Shown here: positions 8,040 to 46,624 of the stretch, one piece after another
Layout of the letters: every line of letters starts with the position of its first letter
Position numbering within the stretch: position 1 is the first letter of the stretch
Source of the DNA: Selaginella tamariscina
Taxonomy: Eukaryota; Streptophyta; Lycopodiopsida; Selaginellales; Selaginellaceae
Assembly (NCBI GenBank): GCA_003024785.1
Contig: PUQB01000101.1
Location: forward strand, 186,001 to 250,000
Direction: 5' to 3'
Length of the DNA: 64,000 nucleotides
Position numbers and translations under genes: made by a program
Notes under the pieces: generated by a model
Told to the model about the DNA's origin: nothing
The model's input: only the letters and a program-made list of their open reading frames with translations
Databases searched by the model: none

Positions 8040-8507
8040 CTTTCCATCCCAATTACTTCAACCCTTATGCACGTTGTAACTAAAGTGGGCATGATACGTG
8101 AAAATGGGAATATAAAATAAATTACTAATTAATACTTAAGTTTTAATTATTAATTAATCATTTAATTAATATGTAATTAAGCCTTAAATATTAATTAATT
8201 AATTAATTAATCCTTCAATAACCTTACTTAGTAAGGAATATTCCTAAAATATCTTAGAATATTCATATTATTCTAAAAATAGTTTACAATAATGAAGAAA
8301 TACTATCAAACATAATTACAAATGAAATCATTTTCTTATCAACATGTTAATTTTTTTATAAATACTTTCTTTCTATCATACAAAGAAATCTTTTCATTTT
8401 GTCTAAATCATCACTCTCCGGATTAATCAAATCATTTTGGTCAATATCTTGATGTTGTTGCCACCACTTAACACTCTCACGAATGCAATTGGGAGTTGCC
8501 ATCCTTG
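8040..8507. other. AT-rich intergenic stretch with TTAATTAA runs
   Basis: The stretch from 8110 to 8215 is almost entirely TTAATTAA-type sequence. A short open frame on the minus strand (8356-8541) follows the HAD-like gene and could be its decayed 3' end, because it overlaps the end of that reading frame. No other gene signal is visible. Confidence 0.5.
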
Positions 8508-9498
8508 TTAATACATAAGATGTATAAGAGAAGGTCTGCATAAAGGCTCATCTAAAAACTGACGTTCCTTAAGAATAATATTATAAAGCGCCCGGTTGCT
8601 ATCCTTCATTTTATAAAATTCAATATCACGAGAAAGAAAAGCTTCAGGAAATGTATGATACGGTGGATACTGCTCACAAAAATTTTCGAGATTCTTCTTT
8701 CTGAGGCACGTATCCAAGTAGTTCACTAGCTCATCCATGATATCGATATCAGAATATGGATCGAAAGTGATTGGATGAATACAAGCAATGTTTTGGTTGA
8801 GCATAGCCTTCTGAGGAGAGTCGTCTACTACTAAGATATGTGCATTCTTCGTTATCCTTAAGCGACTGATCTCCCCATGAGTCCCAATTATTCTTTCATT
8901 CTTGAAGAAGTATGGCTTGCTTTCCTTTCTTATATTGTGAAATTCGAGAGGTTTATGAACATTCGCTGGTCAAAAATCCAATCTTTACGAATCACCTCTT
9001 CTGCAACACTACAATGTTTCTTAAGTAAATCAACAGCGGTGTTAAGTTATGAATCTGCATGCATGACCAAATCCCCACAAGCGCACCCATCTCCTTAAGC
9101 TTTTGAAAGAGACGATCCAACCCTGGACGAAAAATAATATCATATCGAAATTTACCATGACAAGGAATGAAATCTCCTTGTTTGATTTCTGTTTTTCTAT
9201 CCTCGGGCCTTTGTCGATGAAGCAGAACACCATTGACATCCAACAACACAATATGGCCATGAGTAACATGAGATAGCGTTGCCTCTTGAATACTTTGCAA
9301 ATCACTTGTTTGCTCCCTTTCACATTTATCCGTTGCCACTATTCGTTGCCTATCCCTTCATCATTTAATTGTACATCATCCTTACAAGATTCAGATATTG
9401 CATGCGCTGAAGAAATTGATTTCGGAACTGAAGCCAATAAAAATGATGATGCAAAAACTGAAGTGGCCCCCATGGTAACGATGTTTTGAGCTGCCATA
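8508..9498 (-). pseudogene. HAD-superfamily FCP1/SCP-like phosphatase, frameshifted
   Basis: Two signature motifs of the FCP1 homology domain (NLI-interacting-factor type) are visible. VLLDVNGVLL (9220-9249) corresponds to HAD motif I, with the second aspartate replaced by asparagine. ILVVDDSP (8814-8837) is motif IV, with the double aspartate that binds Mg2+. Between them, FRPGLDRLFQKL and VGIWSC match the conserved strand-loop following motif I. Members dephosphorylate phosphoserine, classically in the RNA polymerase II tail. The domain is cut by at least two frameshifts, near 9030 and 8965. A likely N-terminus (ATG at 9498, MAAQNIVTMGATSVF) is out of frame with the rest, implying another near 9335. 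The motif I D-to-N change would weaken catalysis even in an intact copy, although plant relatives with LDLNG exist. It lies just downstream of the ParB-like gene on the same strand. Confidence 0.72.
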
Positions 9499-11440
9499 TT
9501 ATCCTATTTCCTGCATGAACTCTGTCATTCTGACATGTGGCACAAGAAATTGTCGCCAAACCCCTCTCTTACCTCATGGCAATGCTGAAAATCCATGTTC
9601 TCAATTATTTCATTACATCTGCAAAATGATAATTAGCTGACCTTAAAATTATCAAGGTATATTATTTACCTTGTTAATGTGTGACCCATGTTTGAACTAA
9701 AAGCTTCATTAATCCTTGAGAATTTATTTTCTGTACAAATATAAAAGAAATATACAAAAATGCCTTATGTTACACTCATTTACAACTATTCATCACTCTA
9801 TCAATTCATTATCAATTCTTCTTCGCTATTACCTTCTGATGAGGCGAAGAAGGTCTAAGCCGCTTGTGAGATGGTTCAAGATCTTCTGCATCTTCTATTG
9901 ATGTTTCCATGGGTCCTGGAGTGTGCGAATGTTCTGTACTCCTCGAGATAACTTCCGGTCTAATATCTGATTGAGTTCGTTCTCAGACTCCGAGATTGAA
10001 CCAGATTCACCTTCAGAGCTATCGCACTTATCTGGAGGGAACTTTCTCAAATACGCCTTTATGGATCGTTGGGGTACTCAGTTGAGACCCAATCTATCCA
10101 CTTGTTCAGGTCCTCAACCATGGTCTTATCCTTCTCAACGGCAAACACACATGTATGCCGAAGGTAACACTCCTTCAAGACGGACCCCCTAGTGCAGTAG
10201 TCAAAAACCCACGCATCACTGTGAGGACCCCTGATCAAGTTGACGATGCTCCGTGCCGCTTGACTTGTAATGTTTGGATAACGTACATTGCCGAATACGT
10301 CACTCATACCTATCGGTGTATCGGATGGAGGTTCAGGGCCGTTGGAGTGCAAACAGATGCCTGGCCAGTCATTTGGAAGCTTGAAATTGTTTGGCGCATT
10401 CCTAACAACCAAGTGAACAACAGTATCAATGCACTTGGGATTAGCATCGTTCATATAAAATCCTGTCCAACGATGTCTATTCTTCTTGGCGAAGGCGAAG
10501 GCAAAAGTATCGGTGACATGAGCAAGAATCAAGAAATAAATACCTGAAAAAGTAGGTATCAGTGAAGAGCGCAAGCATGAATTCAATAATAAATACCTTC
10601 TATGTATATGCTTGCACGGCTAAGTTTCTCCACCAGATCCTCTAGTGCCCTATCTGTCGAAAGATTTTTTGACACCCGCCGATCCATCACGAACAATTGA
10701 AACGGTTTCCTACAAGCAGTGATGTTACCCCATAAAGTCTCCGAATCTAACAACAAACATCTGTAGGGCTTGTCGTGATTCGTAGCATCCTCCTTTATAA
10801 GGTTCAATTCGGTTCTCCGCTGCTGAAGGACTGCCATAAGAGAAGGCGTCATCCCAATGTTCTCCTTTTTGGCGTTGGCGTGCAATAGATTCTTGCCTAG
10901 ATCTTCCGATTGGTTCACCCATTCGACAAGCATATCATCGTTCGTCACATGCAAATATTTGCTGACCTCTTCATATGTTGAAGTCGAGGTCCAACCCAGT
11001 TTGTGGCAGTGTATTCCCAACCACTCCTTGAAATGCCTGACCGTCTTCAACTCCATTGCCTTGAGATGAAAAGGAGAGGTTGGGCTGCTGTTATTAATTT
11101 GTAGTTTGCCATCGATCACCAAATCAGCCAAGACTTCCATCTCCTCCATCGTTGTTCCATTTAAAGGCTTCAACCATGTGAGCTTGAAATCGTTGTCTAC
11201 ATCCTTTGTAGATTGAACAGACTTAGCCTTCGGCGTCTTACTGGGTTTCTTTGCAGACTTTTCTGAGGGCTCCCCTTCACTTGTCTGCTTCTTCTTCAGT
11301 GTTCCTTTTGAAAAGGATTCCATAATCCCCAACCATTTGGCAAAGATCCTATCTTCGGGGCAAGAAATCAACATCATCAGAAATGATGTTTCCTTCCCGC
11401 CCACCTGGGCAAAATCAACTGCTGCAATTTCTTCAACTCT

Positions 11441-11501
11441 CTGAGGAAAAAGACAGATTAATATACCGGCGAGATAAATCCCGCCCAAACAATTTGCTTA
11501 C
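11441..11501 (-). other. 61-bp intron carrying one copy of the palindromic repeat
   Basis: On the minus strand it starts GTAAGCAAATTG and ends TTTTTCCTCAG. Removing it joins two long frames in phase 0 (SAEYR to RVEEIAAVDF). It contains the variant GGCGAGATAAATCCCGCC (11468-11485, plus strand). The same variant occurs at 14518-14535 in the large array. Confidence 0.75.
11468..11485. repeat. Dispersed copy of the 18-bp palindrome inside an intron
   Basis: The sequence GGCGAGATAAATCCCGCC differs from the array consensus GGCGGGATTAATCCCGCC at two positions and is identical to the array member at 14518-14535. It is about 1.75 kb away from the first array. Confidence 0.8.
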
Positions 11502-13040
11502 CCGGTATTCCGCAGATTGTGTATTCCCTGCGGTAGCTCTTTGTGGTCGCTGAAGAGATTCCCACACGGCTCGCGTGTGTTTAAACTTCTCCCATATTTT
11601 GCTGTTGTAGTGGTTGGTGTCGGCAGCGTCCCATTCCGCCGATAACTTATGGTACTGCTCGATTGTGAGATTCGGCTTAGCTAAAAACGCCGATCTTTTT
11701 GTCAGCTTCTCACGGGTATGCTCGGAAAGTTTTGTTGCCATCGTTCCTTTGTTGTGTTCATCGAGAAGTCGTTGGGCTGCCGTTATTGTGTGCTGGCCAC
11801 TAATGATGTAGTACTTGATAGATTTTTATTCTCCGTCTGAATCTTCATGAGTTGTTCTGGTGTTGTGATCCAGACTTTGTCAGCCCTTCCTTCTTTCATA
11901 GTATGGACACAAAACAGCATTATGTGGAACGGTATAAGAATTGTCGTCCTTCATCTTCTCCATGAGCTCAGCTACACGTTCCTGGTTGAGTGGCCTGTAA
12001 TTGAAGTTTGGGTTGACGCTGCAATATTTAACCCTACAAGGATAAATCTTATCATCCAACATCATTTCCTTGTGACTTATTGCAGCATGAGATGCCACAG
12101 GTGCAGCTGACAAAACGATTGATGATTTTCTTTTGCGATCCGAATCAACATGTGTGATCCCCGACTGCAGCTGTTCTAGTGTTCTCGGCACACTCTCCAG
12201 CTCCCGAAGCTTCCTAAGCAAATTGAACGTGATCTGTAGAGAACCTGAGACCGAGCCACCTTCTCAATCTCCCTTATGATGTCGCTGTGTTCTTCTTCAA
12301 TGTGAAGAGGGAGATTGCTCCACTTGCTGATTTTCTGTATTGTGAAGCAATATCTCCTGACAATACACCTACTCGATGAGTCTGAAGATCTTCGAAGTAG
12401 ACATTAGATGGATCCCCTCCATAGATGGGCTTTCGTTGAGTTGAAGAAGAACTCCAAGGTCAACATCATTAGTGAACACGTGAACGTCATTATCCACAAG
12501 TCGACAAAACCACCCGAGATTAATGTTGTAACTGACGACCTCTGGATCCGAGAACGTGACATTGGATGGAACAAGGCATATCTGTCGAGCATCGTCCAAT
12601 CTGGGTTCGCAGCCTGCTTTCGGGTGCTTGACTAGCGAATCTACTTTCCATTGTTTTGCTTGTCCATGAGATGTGACAGAGGTTAATTTGACAGCAACCA
12701 TGGTTGCTCCAATGCGCTTCCCATTTATCTTAAAATATGGCCAAGTTGATTCCAGAATCCCCCTGCCCATCTCTTCTCCTGCTCTTGTCTTTAATGTCAC
12801 TCAATTCCACATCTGAATACAAAAATGATTAGTTCAAGTATCCGAGTATAACAGATTTTATTTTAATTCTTACCCAGAATTTGACGACGACTCCATACTA
12901 ATGACTCGATCTCCTTGTTTGATCAAATCGTCCTTCTGCAAAATAATACACTATAAATATAAATTATATAAAAACGCACACACACTTGTATAAACCCGAA
13001 TATACAAAAATAATACACAGAGAGAAGTAGACGTAATTAA

Positions 13041-13123
13041 CTGTCCGAAGCTCACATTTGTGTTAGTGCAAAAGAAAGATAACATTTCGTTTTAGAACCA
13101 CCACAAATGTGAGCTCTGGACAG
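13041..13123. ncRNA. 83-nt near-perfect hairpin, miRNA-precursor-sized inverted repeat
   Basis: The 22-base arms CTGTCCGAAGCTCACATTTGTG (split as 13041-13062) and 13102-13123 are reverse complements except for two adjacent central mismatches, and the loop is 39 bases. It lies between the first exon found for the ParB-like gene and the first palindromic array. The arm length and overall size fit a plant small-RNA hairpin, but a tiny foldback transposon is equally possible. No expression evidence can be read from sequence. Confidence 0.35.
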
Positions 13124-13239
13124 TTTTACATAGATTCCTAGCTTTTACTCGAAATATTATGATAAGATGATAAAAGTAAATAAAATGAGATATGCAACTT
13201 ATATATACTAATACACATATATATTCACATGGAAGGTGC

Positions 13240-14657
13240 GGCGGGATTAATCTCGCCACCCCTTCAATGCCTCCTGAAAGAGTGGGCGGGATTAATCTCG
13301 CCACCTTTCTGGAGGCCTTGAACGGGAGTGCGGAATTAATCTTGCCACCCTTCTCGGTCTCAGAGAGAACTGGGCAGGATTTATTTCTCACACCCCTTCA
13401 GTGACTCCAGAAAGGAGGCGGGATTAATCTCGCCCACCATGTAAGGGATGGTTAAATGAATTCCCACCCTTCCCAATTCTCTCCATTGGTATGTTGAAAC
13501 CTTCTACGTCTCAGACAGAAACGTTTGGGATTGGTCCACTCACCAATGGAGAAAAAGGAAGGGTGGCGGATTCATTCCTCCAACAGGCATTGAAGACTCG
13601 GCGGGATTAATCCCGCCGCCCAGGGCCTTCACTCGGTCCCTATGCGGCGGGATTAATCCCGCCGGACGCCAATTCCCTGCGCGGAATCGGGCGGGATTAA
13701 TCCCGCCGCCTAGGCACTTCAGAGGCCAATGGCGGCGGGATAAATCCCGCCCGATTCCGCGCAGGGAATTGGCGTCGGCGGGATTAATCCCGCCTCCCAG
13801 GCCCTTCACTCGGGCCTTAGTCGGCGGGATTAATCCCGCCGAACGCCAATGCCCTGTGCGAAATCTTGCGGGATTAATCCCGCCGCCTAGGCCCTTCAGG
13901 CAGGCCAATGGCGGCGGGATAAATCCCGCCCGATTCCGCGCAGGGCATGCGTACGCGGCGGGATTAATCCCGCCCACCATGTAAGGGATGGTGAAATTAA
14001 TCCCACCACCCTTCTCAGTTCCCTCCATTGGTATTTTGTAAACCTTCTCCGTCTCAGACAGAGTTAGTCGGGATTGATTCAACATACCAATGGGGTAATG
14101 AAGGTTCGGAGATTAATCGCCACCGGGTAATGAAGGTTCGGAGGCTAATCCCGCCGCCCTCTCGTAAATCATGCGCTCACACATATATATTGGCTGCGGC
14201 ATTTTTGAACAGGGATGGGTTTAATCCCGCCGCTTACGCGGAAGTGAGCGGCGGGATTAATCCCGCCGCCCTCCGCGAAGGGCATGAGCGTGGGGCCGGA
14301 TTAATCCCGCCGTTCATGTCCTGCGTGAATTCCCTGGGCGGCGGGATTAATCCCGCCGCTCTACGACAAACCGAAGAGCGGCGGTTAATCCCGCCGCCCA
14401 TGGCCTGCGTGAGGGCCTCGGCGCGGGATTAATCCCGCCGCCCATCCCTGTAAATGCCCTGCGCGGAATCCGGCGGGATTAATCCCGCCCATTAGAACCT
14501 TCACACAGGCCATTGCCGGCGAGATAAATCCCGCCGCATTCCGCGCAGGGCATGGGTGAGCGGCGGGATTAATCCCGCCGCCACCCTCCAAGGCCATGGC
14601 GGCGGGATTAATCCCGCCGCCGAGGCTATAACCTATAGCGGCGGGATTAATCCCGCC
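13240..14657. repeat. Palindromic array 1: GGCGGGATTAATCCCGCC, about 27 sites
   Basis: The exact 18-bp palindrome starts at 13600, 13646, 13690, 13777, 13823, 13957, 14250, 14340, 14472, 14562, 14601 and 14640. Variants (for example with ATAAAT centres at 13734 and 13913, or TCTCGCC right halves at 13240, 13285 and 13417) fill the gaps. Typical spacing is 43-46 bp. The spacers are not random. From 13600 to 13956 they repeat as a set of four, giving a 177-179 bp higher-order unit, and the spacer at 13664-13689 is the reverse complement of the one at 13752-13776. Copies at the left edge are degenerate and those in the middle are perfect. No protein function is suggested: because the palindrome lacks stops, both strands stay open by chance and read AGLIPP or GGINPA. 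Confidence 0.95.
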
Positions 14658-14689
14658 GCTCGAGGGGCTTAGCGAGATAAAAACACACA

Positions 14690-15384
14690 CATATATATAT
14701 GTGTGTGTGTATATATATATATATGTATGTATGTATGTATAGGAGTGTACGTGTGTGTGCAAGAGATAGATAAATAAATAAAATTATACAGTACTGGTAC
14801 ACCTAATATATGTGTGTACATAGGTATATATATGTGTGTATATGTATATCGTGTGTATGCGTGTGAGCGAAACAAATAAAATCATACAGATAAACAAACA
14901 CACACACACACATATATATACACAGGAGTGTGCGTGTGTGTGCGAAAGATAAAACTAATAAATAAATAAAATTATACAGATAAACACACACATATATATG
15001 TGTGTATATAGATATATAATCTATAGAGAAAGAGAGAGAGTCTGTGAATATATAAGCATATATATAAACTAGTGTTGTATGTATGTATATATGTATATAG
15101 GTATATATATATGTGTATATGTATATTGTGTGTATGCGTGTGTGAGCGAAACAAATAAAATCATACAGATAAACAAACACACACACACACACATATACAT
15201 ACAACAGGAGTGTGCGTGTGTGTGCGAGAGATAAAACTAATAAATAAATAAAATTATACAGAAAAACACACACATATATATATGTGTGTATATAGATATA
15301 TAACCCATATGAATATATAAGCATATATATAAACTAGTGTTGTATACTATTTGTTAATATGCATTGATTATATATATAATATAT

Positions 15385-15422
<38 letters not shown>

Positions 15423-15487
15423 GCAGTGCGCGTGTGTGTGGGAGAGATAGATCAATAAAAAAAAATTTACAGATACTGGTACACATA

Positions 15488-15527
<40 letters not shown>

Positions 15528-15790
15528 AAAGCAAGATCAATAAAAAAAAATTTACAGATACTGGTACACATAATATATGTATGTATATATGTATATAGGT
15601 ATATATATATATATGTGTATATGTATATCGTGTGTATGCGTGTGTGAGCGAAACAAATAAAATCATACAGATAAACAAACACACACCCACACACACATAT
15701 ACATACACAGGAGTGTGCGTGTGTGTGCGAGAGATAAAACTAATAAATAAATTATACGCACACTCCTATACATATATACATACATACACA
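14690..15790. repeat. GT/TA microsatellite-rich minisatellite block
   Basis: Alternating (TG)n, (CA)n and (TA)n runs are embedded in a longer unit containing GAGCGAAACAAATAAAATC, seen near 14866, 15146 and 15648. A partner phrase, GTGTGCGTGTGTGTGCGA, is seen near 14928, 15210 and 15712. The longest pure run is (TG)n at about 15387-15418. Open frames here on both strands are low-complexity readings of the repeat (IYIYTHTH and similar) and are not genes. Confidence 0.9.
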
Positions 15791-16690
15791 CACACACACA
15801 CACAGATCTCACCTGTGTGCACAGCCGCCGCCGCCGATTTCACAGCCGCCGCCTCTTGAAACCCTAAGAATATACCTAAACCCTAAAGGAATTAAATATA
15901 TATATCAACCCTAATAGAATATTCCTTCTGAGAATATACTTAAACCCTAAAAAGAATAAAATATAGATTCGCCCTAAACGAATATTCTTTCATTATATTA
16001 TTAGCGCGTGCGTGTGCGTGGGTGTATCACATACACCTCAAAAATATAAATCATGCAGGGATTTAACATGTGTGTGTCCATGAGAGTGTTAAAGTTTCAT
16101 GTGTATCAATACATACATACACATTGCATATATTAATACACATAATATATACATACACACGTGTATACACACAGACATACACACATATTACATGGGTTTA
16201 GGGTTTAGGGTTTAGGGTTTTGGATTTAGGATGGATCATGCATGGTGTGTATGTATGAGAGAAGAGAGAGTGTTGAAAAATTATTTTTGTACACATTGCA
16301 TATATTAGTACACATATATACTTACACATATTATACACAGATATACATACATAGTATATGAGAGAAGAGAGACAGTACATATTATGGATCATGCATGGTG
16401 TGTATTATACACACAGACATACATACATATTAGTACATAATATTAGAGAGACCGAGTACATATTATAGATCATGCATGGTGTGTATGTTTGAGAGAAGAG
16501 AGACAGTACATATTAACATGGATCATGCATGGTGTGTATGTATGAGAGAAGACAGAAAGTACACATATATACATACAGAGTACACATATATACATGCACA
16601 CGTGTATACACACAGACATACATACATATTACATGAGTAAATTCATTGTGTTACATATTAGGGTTTAGGGTTTAGGGTTTGCTCCCAACA
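15791..16690. repeat. Interstitial telomere-like tracts and GGATCATGCATGG minisatellite
   Basis: Short runs of the plant telomere repeat TTTAGGG occur at about 16197-16218 and 16656-16678. Scattered CCCTAAA units lie at 15857-15975. Between them, a phrase containing GGATCATGCATGGTGTGTAT recurs near 16232, 16384, 16468 and 16519, followed by AGAGAAGAGAGACAGTACAT. No gene is seen. Confidence 0.85.
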
Positions 16691-16942
16691 AGCTTAAATA
16701 AATATTACACATGTAAATTCAATGTGTTACATACAGTCACACAGATTGAGTACATATATCATACATGCGTTGAACATGATGTTTTCAATAAAGAAGCAAC
16801 CTATTTCTTCAGTTTGGTTTAGGGTTGTGCATGTGTGTGCATATGTGTTTTTGTAAGTTCTTGTAATGCGTGTGTAAATTTATGATTGTGTTTATATATG
16901 TGTGCAAAACAAACATCGAATAATTAAGAAAATAAAATTAAT

Positions 16943-17344
16943 AAACACACTAGGAACATATTTTAAATTATACATAATAATATATGATTTTATCTAATAT
17001 ATAGCCATATATAGTTTTAATAATATATATTAATTTAATATTGATAAAAAGGTTTAACATTGAAATATTCTTGAAATAATAAGAAATTAATTGAGAAAAT
17101 CCCATTAATATATACAAATGTAAATTAAGTACTCAAATAATTAACTAAATTAATTATCATAATCATGTTTAATATTGGAATATTCTTGGAATAATAAGAA
17201 AATAATAAAGAATATCCCATTAATATAAAGAAGATTAATTACTCAAGTAATTAAGGAAATGATATTAATATATATATTATTAAAACTATATATGACTATA
17301 TATTAGATAAAATGATGTATAATTTAAAATATGTTCATAGTGTG
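16943..17344. repeat. MITE-like inverted repeat, about 85-bp arms
   Basis: The left arm (16943-17030) begins CACACTAGGAACATATTTTA. The right arm (17262-17344) ends TAAAATATGTTCATAGTGTG, its near-exact reverse complement at about 90% identity. A third, direct partial copy is at 17604-17655. The interior holds two diverged direct copies of AATATTCTTGAAATAATAAG. AT-rich and non-coding. Confidence 0.7.
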
Positions 17345-18270
17345 TATTAATTTAATATTGATAATAAGGTTTAACACATGAATATTCTTGAAATAATAAC
17401 AAATTAATTGAGAAAATCCCATTAATATATACAAATGTAGAATAATTACTGCAATAATTAAGAACAAGACTAATTTAATTATGATAATCAGGTTTAATAT
17501 TAGAATATTCTTCAAATATTAATAAAATATTAAAGAATATCCCATTGATACTAGGAAATGAAAACTAAATACTCGAGTAATTAAGAAAATAATAATAATA
17601 AACAGACTATGAATATATTTTAAATGATACATAATAATATATCAATTTATTTATTGTATAAGTATATATTTATATATATATATAATATAAATATACTTGA
17701 ATACTAAGAATGTAGAATATAGTCTAAAATTTCGTAATATTAAACAGCTTGAATCACTTGAATAACATTAAATGCAATTTTAAAATACTCATTGGAACTG
17801 GAGAGTATATATGTCAGAGTGTCGGATATTTGTGTCAACTCATCTTAAATTTTATTTTCTGTTCTTTTTAAAAAATTTGAATTTCTGACATATGTATTGT
17901 CGGTCTGACATGTAAATTTGAAAATGCATTTAATTTCCCACTCAAATTAGATCTGGTTCTTTCTCCGGCAAGGGTTTCTTCATTTCTGTATTTTTCACTC
18001 TTTAGATCTTCTTTTTTCTTCATAGTGATCATCTCAGGAGCGAGATTAAATTGGGTGCTATTCTTTATAGGAAAGCACGGCGCCTTCAGTGCTGTTTACA
18101 AGTAAGTATTATAAACAAATTTAAAAATACTTATTAAGATTCACTCTCTTACATTCTCTCTTAAAATTACAATTTAGGGGTTTAGAAATGCATTAGGATT
18201 ATAATATATTCCGTTAGGGATTTATCACGTTTAAATATCCTTTTAACTTAATATTCTAGGTTAACCGGGC
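17345..18270. other. AT-rich intergenic stretch
   Basis: It contains repeats of AGAATATCCCATTAATAT-type sequence and poly-AT runs. No gene is supported. The last 300 bases, before the second palindromic array, are less AT-rich and include GT..AG-like signals (GTAAGTATT at 18101) that could belong to an untranslated leader exon of the DUF7869-like gene. Confidence 0.4.
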
Positions 18271-19171
18271 GGCGGGATTAATCCGGCCATTTCTTTTTCG
18301 CCTCTTTGAAGAAGTGGCGGGATTAATCCCGCCACCATCTCCCGGGCAATGCTTCTCCGCCACTGAAAAAGAGTGGCGGGATTAATCCCGTCGATAACCT
18401 TCTCAACTGATGAAGAGTTACCAGAATTTATTAGAAAGAGTTGTCGGCGGGATTAATCCCGCCAACCATTTTAGGAGGCAGGGAAGGGGTGGCGGGATTA
18501 ATCTCGCCACCACTTCCCTGTTTTAAAGATTTGGGGACAGGATTTATCCCGAGATCTCTTTGAAATCATAGTGTTGGAGAGAGTTATGTGCGGGTTTAAT
18601 CCCGCCACCCATTCCCCGTCGTAAGAATTGTGGGCGGGATTAATCCCGCCTTGGACTCCCTCCCGACAAGGAAGAGCCGGCGGGATTAATCCCGCCGCCT
18701 CTTCCTCCGACGAGGAAGGGAGTCCGGCGGGATTAATCCCGCCGACTCTCTCCGGCGAGGATGAGTCGGCGGGATTAATCCCGCCGGACTCCCTTCCTCG
18801 TCGGAGAGAGTCGGCGGGATTAATCCCGCCGGACTCCCCCCGAGGAGGAAGAGGCGGCGGGATTAATCCCGCCGGCTCCCCGAGAGGAGAGCGGCGGGAT
18901 TAATCCCGCCGACTCTTCCGTCGGAGGTTGAGTCCGGCGGGATTAATCCCGCCGGACTCCCTCTCGGGGAGAGTCGGCGGGATTAATCCCGCCGGACTCC
19001 CCCCGAGGAGGAAGAGGCGGCGGGATTAATCCCGCCGGCTCTTCCTTGTCGGAGGGAGTCCAAGGCGGGATTAATCCCGCCGACTCTCTCCGAAGGGGTT
19101 GAGTCGGCGGCGGGATTAATCCCGCCGACCGTTCCTCGTCGGAGGGATTCGTGGGCGGGATTAATCCCGCC
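18271..19171. repeat. Palindromic array 2: GGCGGGATTAATCCCGCC, about 20 sites
   Basis: Exact copies start at 18316, 18446, 18633, 18679, 18726, 18768, 18813, 18856, 18893, 18936, 18976, 19019, 19064, 19109 and 19154. Degenerate copies lie at 18271, 18375, 18491, about 18534 and 18589. In the right-hand two thirds the spacing is 37-47 bp. Most spacers there begin with GACTC or GGACTCC and end with GAGTC, or hold CGAGGA/TCCTCG pairs, so each palindrome is extended outward by further complementary bases. The left third is irregular and degraded. The array ends about 155 bp before the ATG of the DUF7869-like gene. Confidence 0.95.
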
Positions 19172-19325
19172 CATCAGTTGTATTAATCAAACATGAGATA
19201 TTATCTCTAAACATAATTATGTATTATTGCATATGCATATTATTAAGTAACCGTAATTCAGATTTCTTAAAAATATTGCATAAACAGATATCATAAATAA
19301 TACAATTATTTATGTGCAGGACAAT

Positions 19326-22300
19326 ATGTTTAATACTGGAGATAAAGTATGTCTTCTTCGGAACAACGAGATAGTTGGCACTGGAACTGTGGAAGTTCGA
19401 GATAATAATGCATCATGTCACAATATTTCCCAAGGATCTTGTGTGTACGTATGGGTGAACACCATTTCAAGCATGTTGAGGTTCTGGGAATGGAATTTGA
19501 GGAGGGTTCTCCTGTATTGTGGAATTTGGATGAAGTCAAGGCTGACACAAAATATGCAGAGTCACAAACAAATAGTAGCACGAGTTTACCAGATGATGGC
19601 TTGCCTGCTGTAATGGATGAGGTGATTCTCTTTCTTCGTGAGATTGAAGTCGGAAGAGGCATCATCACAGCTATAAATCCAATGGAAGCAGTGTCAGAAG
19701 AGAAACTAGGGTCCGACTTCGTGGGTGTAGTTGTGACAGAGGTTTCACCTAATGGCACATTGTATCCTGGATCCCTCGTGAGGTGGCGAACATCTGAATT
19801 AAGACGGCAAGATGGTTCAACATATTCTGGGTTGGATTTCAATAATAACAACCCGGAAGAACAACTCATATTTGAAGAGGTTCCTTGCATTGGTCCTATT
19901 GTAAGAAAAAGGCGATTCATGGGTTGTAGATCTTCCCCTGCAAGTTTCAGCAAGAGGGTAAAGATGGATCCTACATCTTCCGAAAGTGTTACGAGCATTT
20001 CCACGATTGACTGTTGCAAGAAGAAGTGTTGTCAGATGGCAGACCGGAATGAAATTACCCAATGTAGACATGTCTTTCGTATGCTCACCCAAAAGCAAAG
20101 GCATGAGTTTGTATATGCTGCACTAACTGGGTGTATTGATGGAATGGCCTCGGACACAGGTTATCAGAGTACATCCATGGTATTTAATAAGGTGGCCATC
20201 TGCTTCAAAGCTTGGTACAGTATATACGGGATCCCAAAGACCACGTTCTACCGTCGGAGGGATGAGTGGCTAGATGGAGCGCGAACCTCAGTTCATGGGA
20301 ACACTGGCTTGGTCAAAACCCGCTCTCACATCATGGCAGCCATAGAGATACTCAAGGCTTTTGTGGAAGCAAATGCAGACAGGATGCCTCACAAATGCCG
20401 AACCACAAATGCAGGGGTCAGGGAAAATCTCAAGGTTTTACCTTCAATCTACACTCAATTGAAACTGTGTGAACATGTGAACAAGTGCCTCAGTTTGATG
20501 GGGCTCCAAGCAATCTGCACTGGTACCTTCAACAACATATGGAATACTCATTTTAAGGATGTGGAGATTGCAAAACACTCTAGCTTTTCTAAGTGTGACA
20601 CTTGTACATCATTGAAGGCTGCAGAGGCTTGTGCAAAAACCTTGGTGGAGATCACTACCATTCAAAGGAAGATGGAGGCCCACATGATTGCACAACAAAC
20701 TTGTCGGTCTCAGTACTATGCACACCGCATGCTTTCTGTGTCACGCCCATCAGAGTACCTGTGCTTGATCCATGACAAGATGGATCATTCAAAGACCAGC
20801 ATTCCAAAGCTCTTTGCAACACCAAAGTGCCTTGGAAATGTCATGAAACTTCCGATTTCTTTAACAGGTGTGCTAACACATGGACACGGTTGTGAGTCAT
20901 ATGGACACTTTTCACTTCCACATTGGTCTAGCGACTCCAATTTCACTATTGGGTCGTTAGCCATGTGTTTCAGAAACCTTGAAGCCCACTCACAGACAAG
21001 TCCTATCAGTGATCTCAAAGTGAAGAAACAACACCTTCAACCTTTACATAATGCTCTCATGAACACGTCTGCACTTGAGGCTACTTGGGAATATGAGAGG
21101 CATTGTCAGCAACCTGCACAAAAAACAGATGGCCCTGTTGAGAGTTCAGGTTCAGTGGAGGGATCTAGCTCAAATAGTGTACATGTGTCCTCAACATCAA
21201 ATAAGCTTCCTCGTCATTTGCTTTTACAGATGGATAATTGTGCAGGCGAGAACAAAAATAGGTAAATCATTTTACTTAAGGGTTTCTCAAGCTCATACTT
21301 ACTTTTATTTTCTAGATATGTGCTAGCATACTTGTCAATGCTTGTTGCCAAAGGTGTGTTTGAAACAATCACGCTCAGTTTCCTTATGGTTGGTCACACT
21401 CATGAAGATATTGATGCGTTCTTCAGCAAGGTCTCCAACTCTACAAAAAGGACAAGTGCACTTACCTTACCGCATATGATGAATCTTTTTGAAAATTGCA
21501 TCTCCAAAAAAAGTTGTGCTTTGCTTGTGACTGAGGTGCCAGACTTCAAAAAATTTCTCAAGGAGTATATAAAAGAAGGGAGTGATTCTTTAGTTGGTCA
21601 CCTTGTGCCGCTACAATTCTTTTTCTCCATACGAGATGGTATACCTATTATGCAGTACAAGTTACGGCCATCAGAGCAGGAGTGGTTACCGAAAGAGGGC
21701 TTAATGCTCTTCAAAAGTGGAGAGGATGGAAAGCCACTTCTCCCAGAAGGACAACCAGACCCTATTCCATTGAGTGCCCAGCTCAAGGAACAAGAGGTTA
21801 TTATTGATGGCATCAAAAAATATGTGGCATGGGTTCAAAAATCGATGCCAAAGAATTCTGATAAGGCAACTGGTTACTCAGAACTATATAAGCATGTGGT
21901 CAACTATTGGGAGACTGTTGTTCGAGAGTTGGAAGGGCCTACTGTCACAAGTACAGAATTGCAACACCCTTTCTGGCCTAAAACAAGGTGGCGAGAGGAG
22001 ATTGAAATGACATCACTGAGCATAGACGACATAGAAGCCAGTAGTGATGTGGAAGTGCAAACCCCACACTTTGTTGGACAAAGGAACCAAAAACCTAAAG
22101 CATACTTTGATTGCTGCAAGGATCTTCAAAAACTAATGATGGTTCTCATTACTCCAGATGCGTCATATAATCAGCCTATTTGGATGGGTCAAATTATCGA
22201 CACACCTGAAGTAATCACAAAAAATAGTATTGTTAAGGTTGCATGGTTCAAACCACAAAAAAGGCGACACGAGAAGGAGAGCGAAAGATATAATGGATGC

Positions 22301-22444
22301 CTAGAGAAAACATGGTCTCCCAATCAAAAAGACCCAGCATGTTTTATAAATGTTAAATCCATTCGATATGGGTGGATGTCAAGAAGCGTTGATAAAGTCA
22401 CGATTAACAAAACTGCAAGGGAATGTATGTTTTCTGAAGCTTAA
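19326..22444 (+). pseudogene. DUF7869-like protein with transposase-type DDE arrangement
   Basis: Two long frames (to 21261 and from 21316) join across a 54-bp GT-AG intron (21262-21315), giving MDNCAGENKNRYVLAY. The protein shows, in order: an N-terminal beta-rich region; a zinc-binding-like FSKCDTCTSLK segment near 20587; LIHDKMDH (20764-20787); QMDNCAGENKN (21229-21258); and LMVGHTHEDIDAFFS (21385-21426). The spaced acidic residues in these three blocks resemble the catalytic triad of an RNase H-fold transposase. From memory this layout matches plant DUF7869 proteins, whose function is not established. The N-terminus is in another frame: the ATG at 19326 (MFNTGDKVCLLRNNEIVG) follows a TGTGCAG acceptor-like site, and a one-base frameshift near 19455-19470 is needed to reach the main frame. 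This copy may therefore be slightly broken. If that frameshift is a sequencing error, the gene would encode about 1,020 residues. Confidence 0.65.
21262..21315 (+). other. 54-bp intron in the DUF7869-like gene
   Basis: It begins GTAAATCATTTTAC and ends TTTTATTTTCTAG. Splicing completes an arginine codon and continues the conserved DNCAGENKNRYVLAY block. Confidence 0.85.
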
Positions 22445-23095
22445 AGCAATTACAAAATTATAAAATATCATATATTTAATATTCATAATTATTATAAACT
22501 CTTTAATAATAGTACCAAATTGTATACTTAACTATATAAATTTAAAAAATGATATGGAAGATTGACTATATTATTATAGGATTTTATATATATATTATTA
22601 CTACTACAAATTTTTAATTAATAATGTTATATTTAAATATTAATATTTTAATAACAACATCAATATTTATATAATGTACCTCTTATGCTCTTCCTTAATT
22701 GTTATATTAGGCAATATATTATATAATTTAATACATTCTACTTTTATAATGTTATTAATTTTTGTTCAATGAATGCTATAATTTATTAAAGGGTAGAATA
22801 CAAAATAGAATATTCTAAAGAATATTCTCTTTTCAAACATATATTCTAAAGAATATTCCTTTAATATTAGAAAATGCTAATTAAATAGCTAAAATTGCTA
22901 ATTATTAGGAAATGGGACTATAGCCATGCCATTAGTTAAACTTGCATCCTTGTGAAAGTGTCATCCTTGAAAGGTCTAAGACATTAGCTATTTTGACATA
23001 CTAATGCCTCAACACAATTTTAAAGACACCCATTTTGACAAAGTCTTCATTGTTGGTGTACATGGTAAGCTCCTCATCATATTCTTGCAAATGCA
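22445..23095. other. AT-rich intergenic stretch
   Basis: No gene is seen. A cluster of AGAATATTCT palindromes lies at about 22798-22853. Some are arranged as nGAAnnTTCn pairs like heat-shock elements, though the same motif is common throughout the window. Confidence 0.5.
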
Positions 23096-23283: not shown

Positions 23284-23614
23284 ATGCCCTTCTTGCAAAT
23301 CCATATATTTAGAAGTCTACATGCACATATCATATAAGAAAACACATACCACACATGTAAAATTACAAAAGATAGAGGTGCACACATGTCTACACACAAT
23401 GTAGGCATATACATGGATATGCCTATTTAGGCATTTTTGTACATTACAAAATATACATTAGGAAATACCATGTGTCTACACACAATTCATTTATATATAA
23501 ACAAGTATAAACTTATAAATTACTTGAACAAGAATATAATATCCAATTAACAATTAAAGTTGCATCACTGCTTACATTTCACAAATTATTCCTGCTAAAA
23601 TAAAACAAGAAAGT

Positions 23615-23615
<1 letters not shown>

Positions 23616-23664
<49 letters not shown>
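23616..23664. repeat. (TA)n microsatellite
   Basis: A nearly pure TA dinucleotide run of about 24 repeats. Confidence 0.95.
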
Positions 23665-23668
<4 letters not shown>

Positions 23669-23823
23669 ATAAATATAATACTAACTTGTACCTATAAAAT
23701 TTACCTTATTTATTACAGATGGGTTACCAATCTTTATAATGTTGCACTACATATAATCTTTCGGAATATTCAAAGCATGAAAATTTACTTCATTAACATC
23801 AATTATGAATATATATACAAAAA

Positions 23824-24590
23824 TAGCTATTGGGAGGGATAATTAAACCACTTAGCCTTACTTCACATGTTCTTGCTTGTTCATGGTTCCTCTTACCTTT
23901 GCTTCTAGCTTGATGTCATCTCTTGTTAAATCTACATTACCTAGCTCTTAATATCACAACTCCCACACATTGCAGTAAGAAAACCTAAAGCTTCAAGTAA
24001 GAACTCAAGTTGGCCACGTCATTCTCCCATGTAATACACATGTGTCTCATATGACATGTGTATACCAAGCTGTACAATATACTTAGATTTTCTTGGGCTG
24101 TGTGGTTCTGGCTCTAATCTTAGATCAATTTGTATTATATTTTTTTGTGTACAAATGATTCTATGTAATTATACCATAAAAAACTCAATTTAAAAAACAC
24201 ATCTACATTGATGTTGAACATTGGTGACAACCAAAACACTTGTACTATGGAAAGCCATTTGTAACATAATAAAAATAATATAAAATTGATCTAAGATCAA
24301 AACCAACACCACACAACTTAAGAAATTTTAAGCATATTCTGTATAGCTTGGTATACACGTATGTCATATGAAACAAGTATGCATTACATGGGAGAATGAC
24401 ATGGCTAGGTTGGGTTCTTGCTTGAAACTTTAAGTTTTGCTCTAGTGTGTTAGAGTCACAATACAAAGCTAGGAGTGTAGATCTAAGAAGAAATTAGCAT
24501 AAGCTAGGAGAGAAGGTAGAAGCAGTTGGGAAGAAGCAGGAGTGAGAGAAGTAAGGCCAAGTGCATTTCATTATCCCTCTCAATTATATA
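23824..24590. mobile_element. Long-TIR foldback element, copy 1
   Basis: The two halves are reverse complements over most of their length. The left end, TAGCTATTGGGAGGGATAAT, pairs with ATTATCCCTCTCAATTATAT on the right. The left phrase GTATACCAAGCTGTACA (near 24061) pairs with TGTATAGCTTGGTATAC (24339-24355). The middle pairs around TTACAAATGG and CCATTTGTAAC. No coding potential: a non-autonomous element. Related copies lie at 26411, 36678, 42234 and 44445. Confidence 0.75.
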
Positions 24591-25559
24591 TTGTTTAATA
24601 TGGTAATATGTTGAATCATACCATACATATATGAATGGTAATATGTTTGAATTCACTTTGTTGTGAACATTAGAGACTACATATATTTGTGTGTGTGTGT
24701 GTGGGTTTACACACAATCTTGAGCAGATGAAGACCTTGCATCTTATACATAACTTGTCATGTACAACATGCCATATATCTCTATATGTATAAGTGTTGAG
24801 CAATGATATTTTCCAAGTGTGCGACATCATGTGGTCACGAACAAGCACAAAGCTTACTTATCAATAACTGTTTTCACATTTACATAATATATATACAAAA
24901 ACTCATGCTACAAATGCCTTGAGTTTTTGGCATCACACATAGAAAAGAGAATATTTAGAGTCTGTTGCACAAGGCTTTGAAAAAGACAAGCAAGGCATTG
25001 TTGGTAACAAAATATATAAAATGCTTTATTTATTTGGATGGTTAACTAAACATATTGTTTTGTTTACTATAATCGAATACATATAGCTACTTATATAGTT
25101 ATTTGGCTTCTTCTCACCACTATAGAAATGTATGAAATATGCATGAGCATTGAGATTATGCAAAAACATTTTATCTATGGTATATAAAAATAGCATGTGT
25201 TTGAGAGAGATATTTAAATTTATCTATATATTTAAATGTCTACATGCACATATCATATAAGAAAACATGTACTACACTTGTAAAACTTTAGAAGAGAGGT
25301 GTGCACATGTATACACATAATACAAGCATATACATGGATATAAACAAGTATAGACTTACAAATTACTTGAAAAAGAATACAACATCCTTTTCATAATTAA
25401 AGAGTCTTCAATATTGCATCAATGCCTACATTTTACAAACTATTTTCTATTAAAATTACAAGAAAGTTATATTTATGTATTTTACTTTTTTATAATTTTT
25501 ACTATAACTTTTACTTTTTACTTTGAGTTGACTATTGTTACTTATTGATTATGTAATGA

Positions 25560-26280
25560 ACTCTAAATGTAGTGAGAAACAGCCCTACTTAGTTTAACAA
25601 TAGTTCAGTTGGCTATCACTAAATATCTCGAGAAACTCTAGATAAAGGTAACACTTACCTTTTATAGAAATTTTTTTTCCTAATTTGAATATCCCAATTA
25701 AGTTCTTATAGTTTTTCTAGTTGACTTTGGTAAGTTTGGCATGTTGGTATGGGTTAGGAACACCTCTAGGGCACCCCCCAAGAGGGTATAGAAATATGTC
25801 CCAGAGTCTAAGTAGGAACCCACTTACTCAAATAAAAAGCAAGGGGGGAGAGCTATATATGTAGTGAGAGTTCCTGGGTTCAAAAGAGAATTTGTTATTC
25901 TTTTAATTGGTGTAAGCTTAGCTCGTGTTGTTAAGGCACAACCCTCTGTTGTGCCGCCTCAACTTTCAAAATGATAGGTGTACATCCCACTTCGGGTTAG
26001 CCTACCCATAACGTTGGCAAGATTACACATTTATGACTAGGTACATCGCATCCAAGAAAGTTAGTTAACTCCTCTTGTCCAATAACTCATACGTATTACC
26101 TGAGCTAGAAGGTATTACCTGAGTTCATGTTCCATAAGAGTAGTGGTTAAGGCCTTGCTCTGGCTACGTCATCCACACCAAGCTAGAAACGATACTTGCA
26201 ACTCAACTAGCCCAACATCTTGAATCATAAGGTGAGCATTGTTCGTGAACTTGGCCAATTAGGGTGTGAATTCCTAAGAT
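25560..26280 (+). mobile_element. Diverged LTR fragment, same family as 34863-35787
   Basis: Much of this stretch is the reverse complement of 6950-7480 and 35250-35740. Examples are the phrase GGCACAACCCTCTGTTGTGCC-type sequence at 25945-25965, a poly-G run (GGGGGGAG) at 25843-25850, and CGAGAAACTCTAGATAAAGG near 25628. No second LTR or internal region is attached, so it is a solo or truncated LTR. Its right end is blurred. Confidence 0.55.
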
Positions 26281-26410
26281 AGTGATTCACATTTGTGGCA
26301 TTAAATAAAAACTCTGACAACTTTATTACACACAAGGTTACTAATTTTTATAATGTCTCACTGTATATAATCTTCAAGGATTTTCAAAGCCTGGATATAA
26401 ATATATATAC

Positions 26411-27112
26411 ACACAATAGCTATTTGGTGAAATGCACTTAGCTTACTTCACCTGCTCCTACATCTTCTCCTAGCTTGATGCAAATCTCTTGTTAGATCTA
26501 CATTGCTTAGCCTTGATATAACAACTGCCATACACCATAGCAACAAAACATAAAGCTTCATGCAAGAATCCAACCTAGCCACATCATTCTTCACTTTAAT
26601 GCACACATGTCTCGTATGACATATGTATAACCAAGCTATACAGAATATGTTTAGAACTTTTTGGGCCGCGTGTGCTGGCCCTAATCTTAGATCAATTTTA
26701 TATTAAATTTTTTTTCATGTTACAAATGGTTTTTCGTACTCGTACATCTAGCATTAGCTTGTACATAATTTAATATGGAAAGCCATTTGTAACATAAAAA
26801 TATAATATAAATATTGATTTACAATCAGGGCCAACACCATGCGGCCCAAGAAAAAACTAAACATATTATATACATCTTGGTATACATATATGTCATATGA
26901 GACACGTGTGCATTACATGGGAGAATGATGTGGCCAAGTTGGGTTCTTGTTGTTGTAGTGTATGGTAGTTGCAATCCGGAGGCTATGTAGTTTAGATCTA
27001 ACAAAAGATTAGTATTAAGCTAGGAGAGGAGGCAAGAGCAATTGGGAAGAAGCATGAGCATGTGAAGTAAAACTAGATGCATGTCATTATTCCTCTTAAT
27101 AGCTATTGTGTA
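26411..27112. mobile_element. Long-TIR foldback element, copy 2, with clean ends
   Basis: It starts ACACAATAGCTATT and ends AATAGCTATTGTGT, a perfect 14-base terminal inverted repeat, and it is bordered by TA on both sides. The arms pair over roughly 300 bp, including GTATAACCAAGCTATACAG with CATCTTGGTATAC. It is the best-preserved end pair of the family in this window. It belongs to the segment duplicated at 42.3-46.7 kb. Confidence 0.75.
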
Positions 27113-29100
27113 TATATATATATATATAATTGATTTTAATGAAGCAAATTTACATGTTTTAAAAATTCTTGAAGACTATATGCAATGCAACATTATAAAG
27201 ATTGATAACTTCATGTGTAATAAAATAAATTTTATATGTACATGTCAGTATTGTGTTTATGTGGTATATATGTATATATATTAACTTTCTTATTTGATTT
27301 AAACAGGAACGATTTGTGAAATGTAGGTAGTGATGGAACACCCTTTATTATAAAATGGATGTTATGTTCTTTTTTAAATAATTTGTAAGTATATACTTAT
27401 TTATTTATATTTAATCTCTAGATACATGGTATTCTCCCTTATTAAGTGTCTGTTTTGTTATATATAGAAATGCTTGAATAGGCATATCCATATATATGCC
27501 TACATTGTAAGTATACGTGTGCACCTCTCTCTTCTGTAATTTTATAGGTGTAGTATGTGTTAAATATATGATATGTGCATGTAGACATTTAAATATATAG
27601 ATAAATTTAAATATCTCTTTCACACACACATACTATTTTTATATAAAATACATAATATTTATTTACATAATCTCATGCATGTTTCATACATTGCTAAATG
27701 TAACTATATAAGTAGTTAAACATATTAAATGTAAAGTGTAAAAGTAAATAAGTATACAAACCATATGTTTAATTAACCATCTAAGTTGACTAACAAACTA
27801 GATATAAAATTACTATGTACTAACTAATAAAACATTTCTATATATTTTGTTTGTTGTCAAAAATGCCTTATTTGTTTTTTAATTACAAAGTAAAGTCAAC
27901 TTTTAAGTTATGAATGTCAATAGTTGTCATACATTTTCATACAACATAAGCCTCTTCAAAGCCTTCTACAAAGCCTTCTAGACAAATTTTAAATATTTTC
28001 GACAAATACCTTTTTATGTGTAATGTTAAAAACTCAATGTAGTTAGTAGTATATATTTTATAAATATGAAAACAACTATCGACAAGCTAGTTTTGTGCTT
28101 ATTTATGAATATACAGGATGTAGCACACTTGGAAATATATCACTGTTCAACACTTGTACATATAAAGATTATGTACATTTGTACATGACATATTATATAT
28201 AAGATGCAAGGTCTTTATCTCTTTAAGATTGTGTAAACACACACACTTGTAAATAGTCTTCAATGTTCATACCAAATGCACTCTTGCATGATTTGCAAGC
28301 TATTCACTAGCTGTCTTTTTAAGGATCTACAAGCCACCAACATCATCTCGATAGAATATAGTAATTAAATATGAGTCTCTACGTGGACCGGAACCATTCA
28401 TAATGTTCGAAGTGGTTCGGATTTTCACATAGTTGAACGTCCTCAAACTCTTCCAGTGTTGTACAAGGTTACCTTTGTTCTTCTAAGAGATGATATATAT
28501 GCACACGTGTCTCATATCACATATGTGTATATTAAGTTGTACATAATAATGTTGTAACTTCTGATCTTAAATAGATTTTATATTACTTTTTTAATGTTAC
28601 AAATGGCTTTCGTAAATTTAGATAGCCAAAATGTTGCTTTTAAAACAATATATCGTATAAAAAAATTTGCAATAATGTTTTTAACTATCCATCAAAAGAT
28701 ATTCAATGTTTTATAAAAACTGTAATTTGTCTTGTATAAGTAATTAATTAATAATGTATTTATACCGATCAACAAAGATGAATCATGCACATGAACTTTA
28801 GGAAATATTTCAAGAGCGCATTCTACACCTTATAATTTAAAAGGGATGGGCATCGCTTCTCTTTCACAGCTGTGCGACCCAGCTCCACTCGTACAAATCA
28901 AAAGCGATGCGAAAAGTGAACCAATGCGCTTCTTGTTTCGTGAGAATAAGGTAAGAGAGCGCGGTACTTGAACACCCTCTGTCACATATTGTGTACTTTC
29001 TCATGTGCGGACAAGTAGAAGACTTACAAGTGCGCGCTTTTAAAGCCAGAAATTTAAAGCTGATGTGGTTCCTCTTCAAAGATAAAATATAGTCAAACAT
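27113..29100. other. AT-rich spacer with inverted-repeat remnants
   Basis: No gene. The segments at 27470-27600 and 28150-28290 are reverse complements of parts of 23300-23450 and 24690-24800, showing that the foldback family is embedded in larger inverted repeats. A single arm of the family (28490-28620) ends this tract. The last 400 bases before the wax synthase are conserved in the second copy and could hold its promoter. Confidence 0.5.
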
Positions 29101-29142
29101 TGTGGATCTCACATCCGCTCCAGCCAATTCTAGGGCCGTCGC

Positions 29143-30194
29143 AATGGCAGGAGGGGCGGCAGGAGCAGTGGGGATTGGATGCATTGTATACGGCTACACT
29201 GTGCTTCTCCATTTGCCGCCTGGATTGCCACGAGCGATTGCGTTTCTGCCATGGATGCCCCTCCTGCTGACAACTGCTTGGTATGTCCCCACTGTCCACA
29301 TGAGAGCACTAGTATCGTTCTTCTTTGTCTGGATCATCCCGTCCAAGATGTTGCTCCTCTGTTTTGGTGCAGGCCCGGCTAAAGATCCATGGATTACAAG
29401 CACATTCCCTCGCTTCTTTGCGAACATGGCACTCACCGTTCATGTTCCTGTCGCGAGCCAGCATCATAAGCAACCAGATCATTCAAGTTGGTGGAACTGG
29501 ATCCAAGACTCTCTCGCATGGCAAGCTATTATAGTTCGTGCAGCATTCAAGCTTGGGCTGGTGGTGCTACTGTTCAGAATCTATGCATTCCGGAACGATC
29601 TCCACGAGGTGTTGCTGTACCTTGTCTTCTCATGCACATCTACTTGGCATGTAGTCTCATTTTCGAGGTTCTTGCCGCTGTGGGTGCTGCTACAATTGGG
29701 CTGGAGCTGGAGCCTCAGTTCGACAAGCCCTTCCTGGCTTCATCCTTGTCTGATTTCTGGGGGAGGAGGTGGAACCGACTCGTGAGCAACATCTTGCGCG
29801 CGTCTGTTTACGAGCCACTGATGCGTAAGGTGCATGCTCGTGGAGAAACTCAGCTGTTGTTCATTAGGGGCGCTGCAACACTGGCAGTCTTTGTGGTGTC
29901 TGACTGATGCACGAGATTATATTCTTTTACTTGAACAAGTCCAACCCAACCTGGCAAGTCACTGCATTCTTTGTCATCAATGGTGTGGCCACAGTGTTAG
30001 AGACGGTTGCAAGAAAGTGCGGCATTTGCAAAAGGTGCACAATTAGCCAGCCGCTGCGGGTTATCTTGTGCTTAGGATCTGTGTTTGGACTTGCTTGCTG
30101 GCTCTTCTTCCCACCCATCCACAGGACGGGCACTTGTTTTCGAGCACTTTCCGAGTTCGATCAAATATTGGAGTGGTTCAAATCCAAATTCTGA
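29143..30194 (+). pseudogene. Wax synthase (MBOAT), copy 1, two frameshifts
   Basis: An intronless reading frame of about 350 codons begins MAGGAAGAVGIGCIVYGY and continues with alternating hydrophobic membrane segments. It carries SLSDFWGRRWNRLVSNILR (about 29740-29797), the hallmark of plant jojoba-type wax synthases. It also carries a LMHE box (29904-29915) holding the MBOAT histidine. Such enzymes esterify long-chain alcohols with acyl-CoA in the ER membrane. The frame is broken twice: near 29627, where a G present in the second copy (TCTCAGTGCAC) is missing, and near 29901, where a G just before the LMHE codons is missing. Length and ends otherwise fit the family. Its near-twin lies at 45546-46590 with different lesions. 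Confidence 0.82.
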
Positions 30195-37375: not shown

Positions 37376-37385
37376 TATTTTTTAA

Positions 37386-37428
<43 letters not shown>

Positions 37429-44755: not shown

Positions 44756-44812
44756 TGTTGCTTTTAGAACATATATCGTATCAAAATTTCAATAATGTTT
44801 TTAGCTATCCAT

Positions 44813-46590: not shown

Positions 46591-46624
46591 CAGACATATA
46601 TATGTACTTCTAATCATATCTTAA

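Follow-up and report, generated by a model that had tools for sequence, protein, structure and literature searches.

Twin palindrome arrays inside a high-copy DNA transposon of Selaginella tamariscina, with a possible role as multi-site binding switches

The sequence considered here is a 64-kb stretch of the Selaginella tamariscina genome (contig PUQB01000101.1, positions 186,001 to 250,000), which is called the window below and within which all positions are numbered. It contains a whole DNA transposon of 14.88 kb (8067..22947), delimited by the borders of its similarity to other genomic copies. From left to right, this element carries a NIF-like open reading frame (ORF), a gene named gene A, a first array of a perfect 18-bp palindrome, GGCGGGATTAATCCCGCC, a promoter region, a second array of the same palindrome and a gene encoding a DUF7869 protein. 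The two arrays (array 1, 13240-14657; array 2, 18271-19171) are resident parts of this high-copy transposon and not satellite DNA. This context, together with the probable location of the arrays in leader introns, had been missed in an earlier interpretation of the same DNA (hereafter the sequence-only reading). The order of the parts is the same in all six complete pairs of arrays (copies A, B, C, D, E and F) of a contig, C1, on which 23 stretches around arrays were read and nine copies (A to I) were compared with the window copy (W); copy H includes a 2.5-kb run of N, and only partial sequences were available for G and I.

The likeness of the copies to the window starts at 8066-8071 and stops at 22946-22947. 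The element is flanked by a target site duplication, CCTT (8063..8066 and 22948..22951), and is bounded by terminal inverted repeats of 27 bp, identified by comparison of the copies at 8067..8093 (plus strand) and at 22925..22947 (minus strand), the latter being shortened in the window by small deletions. Typical left and right ends are identical at 25 of 27 positions and start with ATGCA[CA]GTTGTAACTAAA. A search for terminal inverted repeats restricted to the window had found none, giving GAATATTC repeats instead; this last palindrome occurs at 21 places of the window (e.g. 7674, 22808 and 22820), compared with 1.7 expected under a first-order model. The 4-bp target duplication is exact in four of seven independent insertions (CCTT for W, TTAT for C, ATAA for E and ATGT for H), is found in A and B only if the boundary is moved by one base and is not visible in F. 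Copy D is a duplicate of C that shares its flanks and was hence not counted as an independent insertion. In the region C1:890001-940000 (L065-L069), two element copies lying 18.7 kb apart share flanks and target site duplication and represent a duplication rather than two insertions. The left end (34 bp) has 1,726 matches in the genome at no more than three mismatches, versus none for a control; if every left end belonged to a full-length copy, which is an assumption, the family would occupy about 26 Mb.

The DUF7869 gene (19326..22441, plus strand; Pfam PF25273) contains an intron (21262-21315) that is kept in all eight copies compared and shows one apparent frameshift near 19.4 kb. It is considered the candidate transposase gene because it moves with the element and because neither of its companion genes is as good a candidate. 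Eleven relatives of its product (P0003-P0013) were found in the protein collection and none among viral contigs. The AlphaFold model of P0003 is poor (predicted local distance difference test 56, predicted template modelling score 0.34) and gave no PDB match at E<=0.001. A literature search for the word DUF7869 found no mention of it, and the present element supplies a genomic context for this domain. The pieces of the NIF/FCP1-like phosphatase ORF (8511..9357, minus strand) match Pfam PF03031 just past the cut-off (E=8e-5). This ORF is present in eight of the nine C1 copies, the sequence of the ninth (I) ending short of the region; its divergence between copies is low (0.6-2.4%), and no third-position excess was found between them. 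Gene A (10062..12935, minus strand) is without known relative: protein and profile (Pfam) searches found neither homologue nor domain. Between the window and copy A, its substitutions at codon positions 1, 2 and 3 number 24, 21 and 54 (sum of five segments), and this clustering at the third position indicates that gene A was under selection at the protein level; it also displays copy-specific frameshifts. An assignment of its product to ParB-like proteins, which was based on the look of a single motif and had no profile match, was rejected, and the PDB matches listed were taken as chance. An N-terminal domain shared by gene A and the DUF7869 protein was likewise set aside, the similarity being weak (7.2 bits on the whole sequence, BLASTP E 3.6), with one of 200 shuffles above the real score (7.5 versus 7.2 bits).

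The two arrays hold all 27 exact matches to the 18-mer, and both this count and the limits of the arrays agree with the sequence-only reading. At up to three mismatches, 42 sites were found in the 64 kb, compared with none in 100 dinucleotide shuffles. Within the arrays, the non-overlapping sites number 49 at up to six mismatches, 41 at up to three and 27 exact; array 1 contributes 29 of the 49 (12 exact) and array 2 the other 20 (15 exact). Of the 46 intervals shorter than 80 bp, 29 measure 43-46 bp. Decay of the outermost copies is seen at the left edge of each array, while the copies at the right edges (14640 and 19154) are exact. Nor do the two blocks contain all the sites: another one, with two mismatches, lies outside them, at 11468-11485. 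The consensus letter has a frequency of 0.93 over the 18 core columns versus 0.44 in the flanks (49 sites). Like satellite DNA, the arrays consist of tandem units of about 44 bp assembled in four-unit higher-order repeats (lag 4; 177 bp in array 1 and about 163 bp in array 2). They do not form the homogeneous, free-standing tandem array of a plant satellite: good agreement between units is confined to the 18-bp core, the spacers, which occur as direct and inverted copies, differ from each other (pairwise likeness 0.49 and 0.62, versus 0.43 and 0.44 after shuffling), and the arrays are fixed internal parts of the element in 16 of 17 cases among the matches listed. The view that this is no ordinary plant satellite therefore holds.

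The 17 arrays just mentioned are those into which the first 100 18-mer places listed, all on C1, can be grouped; together with the window, they make up the array survey. Twelve of these 17 arrays are paired, with 3.0-3.6 kb between the inner edges of the two partners, and 16 of the 17 adjoin a match to gene A or to the DUF7869 gene; for the remaining one (C1:2070.6-2072.5k), there is no such match within the stretch compared. In the whole genome searched (300.7 Mb in 1,391 contigs), 27,128 exact copies of the 18-mer were counted, versus none for the reversed control. The possibility that the palindrome is a private satellite, restricted to this locus and lacking any link with neighbouring gene families, is thus contradicted on both counts. 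The 18-mer also occurs in bacteria (49 stretches) and in one viral contig, with at most two sites per stretch compared (L012) and no arrays, and these matches were treated as unrelated. One Prevotellaceae bin has the 18-mer on nine stretches, mostly by contig ends (L013, L022, L026, L027, L033, L035, L037, L039 and L050). A literature search for the 18-mer sequence found no mention of it.

The core of the palindrome is kept, in contrast to the drifting spacers and to the number of units, which rises and falls. The four-unit blocks duplicated within each array provide the cleaner comparison, since core and spacer are there of equal age. With gap columns excluded (7 in array 1 and 42 in array 2), the core differs at 1 of 72 positions and the spacer at 13 of 103 in array 1 (P=0.009); the figures for array 2 are 0 of 144 and 18 of 177, respectively (P=2e-5). 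Whole-unit homogenisation alone is therefore insufficient to explain the constancy of the cores, as the spacers of the very same units have drifted; of the two causes first put forward, homogenisation or selection on each site, it is the second that the data favour. The comparison of W with B, its closest copy, is cleaner than the other between-copy comparisons too (core 0/646, spacer 34/1438 changes). The other copies gave 24/609 and 211/1128 (A), 20/448 and 166/913 (C), 11/436 and 153/894 (D), 21/530 and 186/1033 (E), 5/639 and 98/1450 (F) and 6/303 and 135/504 (H), so that, in these six of the seven copies compared, spacers changed 4 to 13 times as fast as cores, a contrast that is overstated in part by the alignment, in which each core can be matched with every other. 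Between W and B, the differences in the arrays concern whole units, in blocks of 41, 79 and 210 bp, while gaps of at least 30 bp are absent from the gene parts and gaps of at least 60 bp from the inter-array region. In copy F, array 2 is short by 164 bp, i.e. one four-unit repeat, and gaps are found in other parts as well. Transitions per site are most frequent in the CHG context (10/100, versus 7/200 at CG), and plant-type methylation could be their cause.

The element's two divergent genes each have one array ahead of their coding part, and conserved splice signals suggest that both arrays lie in 5' leader introns. The putative leader intron of gene A (12936..15812, minus strand) starts with a GTGAG donor and ends with the acceptor TTTTGCAG, both of which are kept, amid rearranged sequence, in all seven copies in which this part is present. 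One copy, E, has a different exon base ahead of this donor. For the DUF7869 gene, the predicted leader intron (18102..19319, plus strand) has the donor ACAA/GTAAGT (18102) and the acceptor TATGTGCAG, and neither the donor nor the GTGCAG of the acceptor (19319) changes in any of the eight copies. The latter signals are constant even though, for five of the seven copies compared with the window, the inter-array region diverges by 10-17%. Arrays 1 and 2 would therefore occupy mirror-image places, on either side of a single promoter region from which the two genes are transcribed in opposite directions. On the same grounds, the lone two-mismatch site (11468..11485, minus strand) would lie in the middle of an in-frame GT-AG intron of gene A, 61 nt long (11441..11501, minus strand). 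It is identical in the seven aligned copies that possess it (window included, C and D being duplicates), with 0 of 108 compared bases changed, versus 2 of 256 in the remainder of this intron. A short hairpin-like insertion resembling miniature inverted-repeat transposable elements (MITEs), AACTGTCC...AGCTCACATTTGTG / CACAAATGTGAGCT...GGACAGTT, was noticed by eye at 13038-13125, within the putative gene A leader intron. Telomere-like TTTAGGG/CCCTAAA stretches are found between the arrays (15858-15975 and 16194-16230).

Two divergent relatives carry GGATTAATCC- or GGATTTATCC-type sites at matching places, i.e. in the leader in both and in the internal intron in one. In a second family (C1:2055-2059k), the gene A pieces are 39-63% alike and an array is found in the leader. 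Among 34 sites from this array and from that of C1:2070.6-2072.5k, one of which belongs to a neighbouring element and lies outside any array, five are GGCGGGATTAATCCCGCC and five are GGCCGGATTAATCCGGCC. At arm position 4/15, 20 of these 34 sites have matching letters, compared with 11.4 expected (a value reached by 1 of 2000 permutations), and no paired excess was found at the other three arm positions. At C1:1817.7-1819.9k lies a third, older fragment, whose gene A pieces show 29-63% likeness. Three GGATTTATCC-type sites are found in its counterpart of the internal intron, matched by eye, and four in the leader, some of them 44-47 bp apart; these seven are among 11 decamer matches (up to two mismatches) in 14 kb, so that single ones could be due to chance. 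What remains constant across the families is the palindromic decamer GGATTAATCC and not TCCCGCC.

Taken as a whole, the site is preserved to the letter, has dyad symmetry, is multiplied beside both promoters and is retained in divergent relatives. For these reasons, each 18-mer can be interpreted as a dyad to which a DNA-binding protein would attach as a dimer, and such a site fits the observed pattern. We consider it slightly better than an even bet that the arrays are operator-like multi-site switches for a dimeric protein that the element itself probably encodes. Its source, less firmly, may be gene A in the first place and the DUF7869 gene in the second. The process could be viewed as follows: a dimer encoded by the element would bind dozens of sites located just downstream of both promoters; this binding would control the genes of the element or, by analogy with the VANC and TNPA proteins discussed below, protect them from silencing; the array would be carried along as a multi-site switch and re-expanded through unequal exchange between palindromic units. 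Besides the overstated between-copy contrast, several points weigh against this interpretation. The choice of sites by their likeness to the 18-mer favours conserved cores. Old copies lose exact sites: C and D each retain 7 among 29. The paired change of the divergent family may result from few independent events. DNA binding by the gene A product is a guess, as this protein has no detectable homologue or domain, and a host factor acting as binder would leave identical marks.

The best outside candidate for such a binder is host E2F/DP, since every palindrome contains two inverted TCCCGCC motifs; the expression of the element would then be tied to S phase, or E2F would be titrated. PMC5464667 describes TCCCGCC as the shorter of the elements that E2F factors recognise in vivo, and 72 TCCCGCC/GGCGGGA motifs are found in the arrays versus 4 in the remaining window, one of these 4 being in the lone intron site. 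According to PMC12595863, transposon families of Brassicaceae have multiplied E2F-type motifs; there, the carriers are mostly MITEs and Helitrons, whereas the present element is large and coding, with dense palindromic arrays. This candidate fits the divergent families poorly: the five GGCCGGATTAATCCGGCC sites among the 34 lack TCCCGCC while retaining the decamer GGATTAATCC, the motif is also missing from sites such as GTGGGATTTATCCCAC in the older relative, and both the dyad and the AT centre are left unexplained. Host E2F/DP binding as the basis of the arrays is accordingly judged unlikely.

It seems similarly improbable that the palindromes act at the RNA level, as intronic hairpins or long duplexes that steer the splicing of the leader introns or feed small RNAs. 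Folding is certainly strong: the 18-mer reaches -12.6 kcal/mol, 13646-13794 forms a single near-perfect duplex (-146.5, versus -64.0 for shuffles), array 2 folds at -694.6 versus -389.1 for shuffles, and the arrays and the lone site all appear to be intronic; good folding is nevertheless expected of any array of palindromes, and the fold of the 61-nt intron is unremarkable (z -1.2). Covariation gives a mixed picture. In addition to the paired change at 4/15 in the divergent family, a pool of eight copies shows paired cells above permutation at 4/15 (212 versus 204.9; 22/2000) and at 2/17 (228 versus 214.4; 0/2000), but this pool contains chance and decayed sites, and its symmetric changes are few (two at 4/15 and none at 2/17). 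In the window, the arm changes comprise 55 single-arm and 1 compensatory, plus 2 that are double but unpaired, which leaves the proposal of the sequence-only reading that a cruciform, or any hairpin, is the selected feature unsupported in this family. Flank covariation is absent within either array, where symmetry is no better than permuted; the slight excess obtained by pooling both (199/5000) arises because the two arrays differ. The least likely alternative is that of a passive tandem repeat, in which slippage and unequal exchange inside the transposon would have multiplied functionless palindromes, for, although units and blocks are gained and lost between close copies and spacers are copied in both orientations, the cores stay constant while spacers of the same units drift, similar motifs recur in the leader and internal intron of divergent relatives, and the lone site, which belongs to no array, is unchanged across seven aligned copies.

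A dimeric protein reading the arrays of its own element would have counterparts in two known systems. VANDAL elements are Mutator-like, and Mutator-like elements generate target site duplications of about 9 bp; in En/Spm, the TNPA protein uses the subterminal repeats of the element. PMC5735166 and PMC10398659 indicate that, in Arabidopsis, VANC proteins bind tandem arrays of a short motif in noncoding parts of their own VANDALs and lift silencing, and that the repeats of these arrays expand, contract and evolve together; the motif of VANC21 is given there as YAGTATTAY, which is no palindrome. Motif arrays that expand and contract in noncoding regions are found in the present element as well. 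It differs by its 18-bp palindrome, its DUF7869 gene, its 4-bp duplication and the probable leader-intron position of its arrays, and none of its scanned ORFs has a Mutator-like Pfam match. As for CACTA/En-Spm elements, PMC2613891 describes, for the soybean Tgmt*, many subterminal copies of a short motif that has GC-rich and AT-rich parts, as here, and can form stem-loops, and that a DNA-binding protein encoded by the element is thought to use. Those arrays adjoin the termini, whereas the present ones lie 5.2 and 3.8 kb inward. In addition, the ends do not begin with CACTA/CACTG, the target duplication is 4 bp instead of 2-3 bp, and Pfam scans of the ORFs of the element and of 13 relatives or pieces matched DUF7869 and no tnp2-type transposase; TNP1 (PF03017) appeared below cut-off in one of 13 scanned members, P0003 (15 bits versus 21). 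Among the matches listed by a literature search on palindromes in transposon introns, none was pertinent.

By analogy, the element may be viewed as a variation on the motif-array self-recognition of VANDAL/VANC and En/Spm TNPA. A broader proposal, possible but on balance doubtful, is that it represents an undescribed plant-type transposon group, defined by a DUF7869 protein, a 4-bp target site duplication, a second gene without known relatives and a captured phosphatase, and endowed with its own self-recognition. An element-encoded dimer would read the leader-intron arrays, leading to family-specific activation or anti-silencing, and palindrome and reader would have co-diverged within one genome (GCGGG versus CCGG arms around a constant GGATTAATCC core). 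If the arrays do work as such switches, motif-array self-recognition, which has been elucidated in VANDAL and En/Spm, arose in another transposon group, where its sites occupy introns downstream of promoters. A single genome with about 1,700 left ends and two or more motif types would then allow a direct test of protein/target-site co-evolution.

A search of the whole window for RNA families found none at threshold. To the right of the transposon, the window contains other repeated sequences. A gene-like stretch is present in two copies that are 88% alike (28685-30270 and 45161-46669), two scanned ORFs of which have no Pfam match. A second repeat family has long, mutually inverted copies, about 65-78% alike, at 23299-28403, 36678-38084 and 42290-44759. 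Finally, a 102-bp unit is repeated in seven tandem copies at 40892-41618, near the remains of a Ty3-type retrotransposon.

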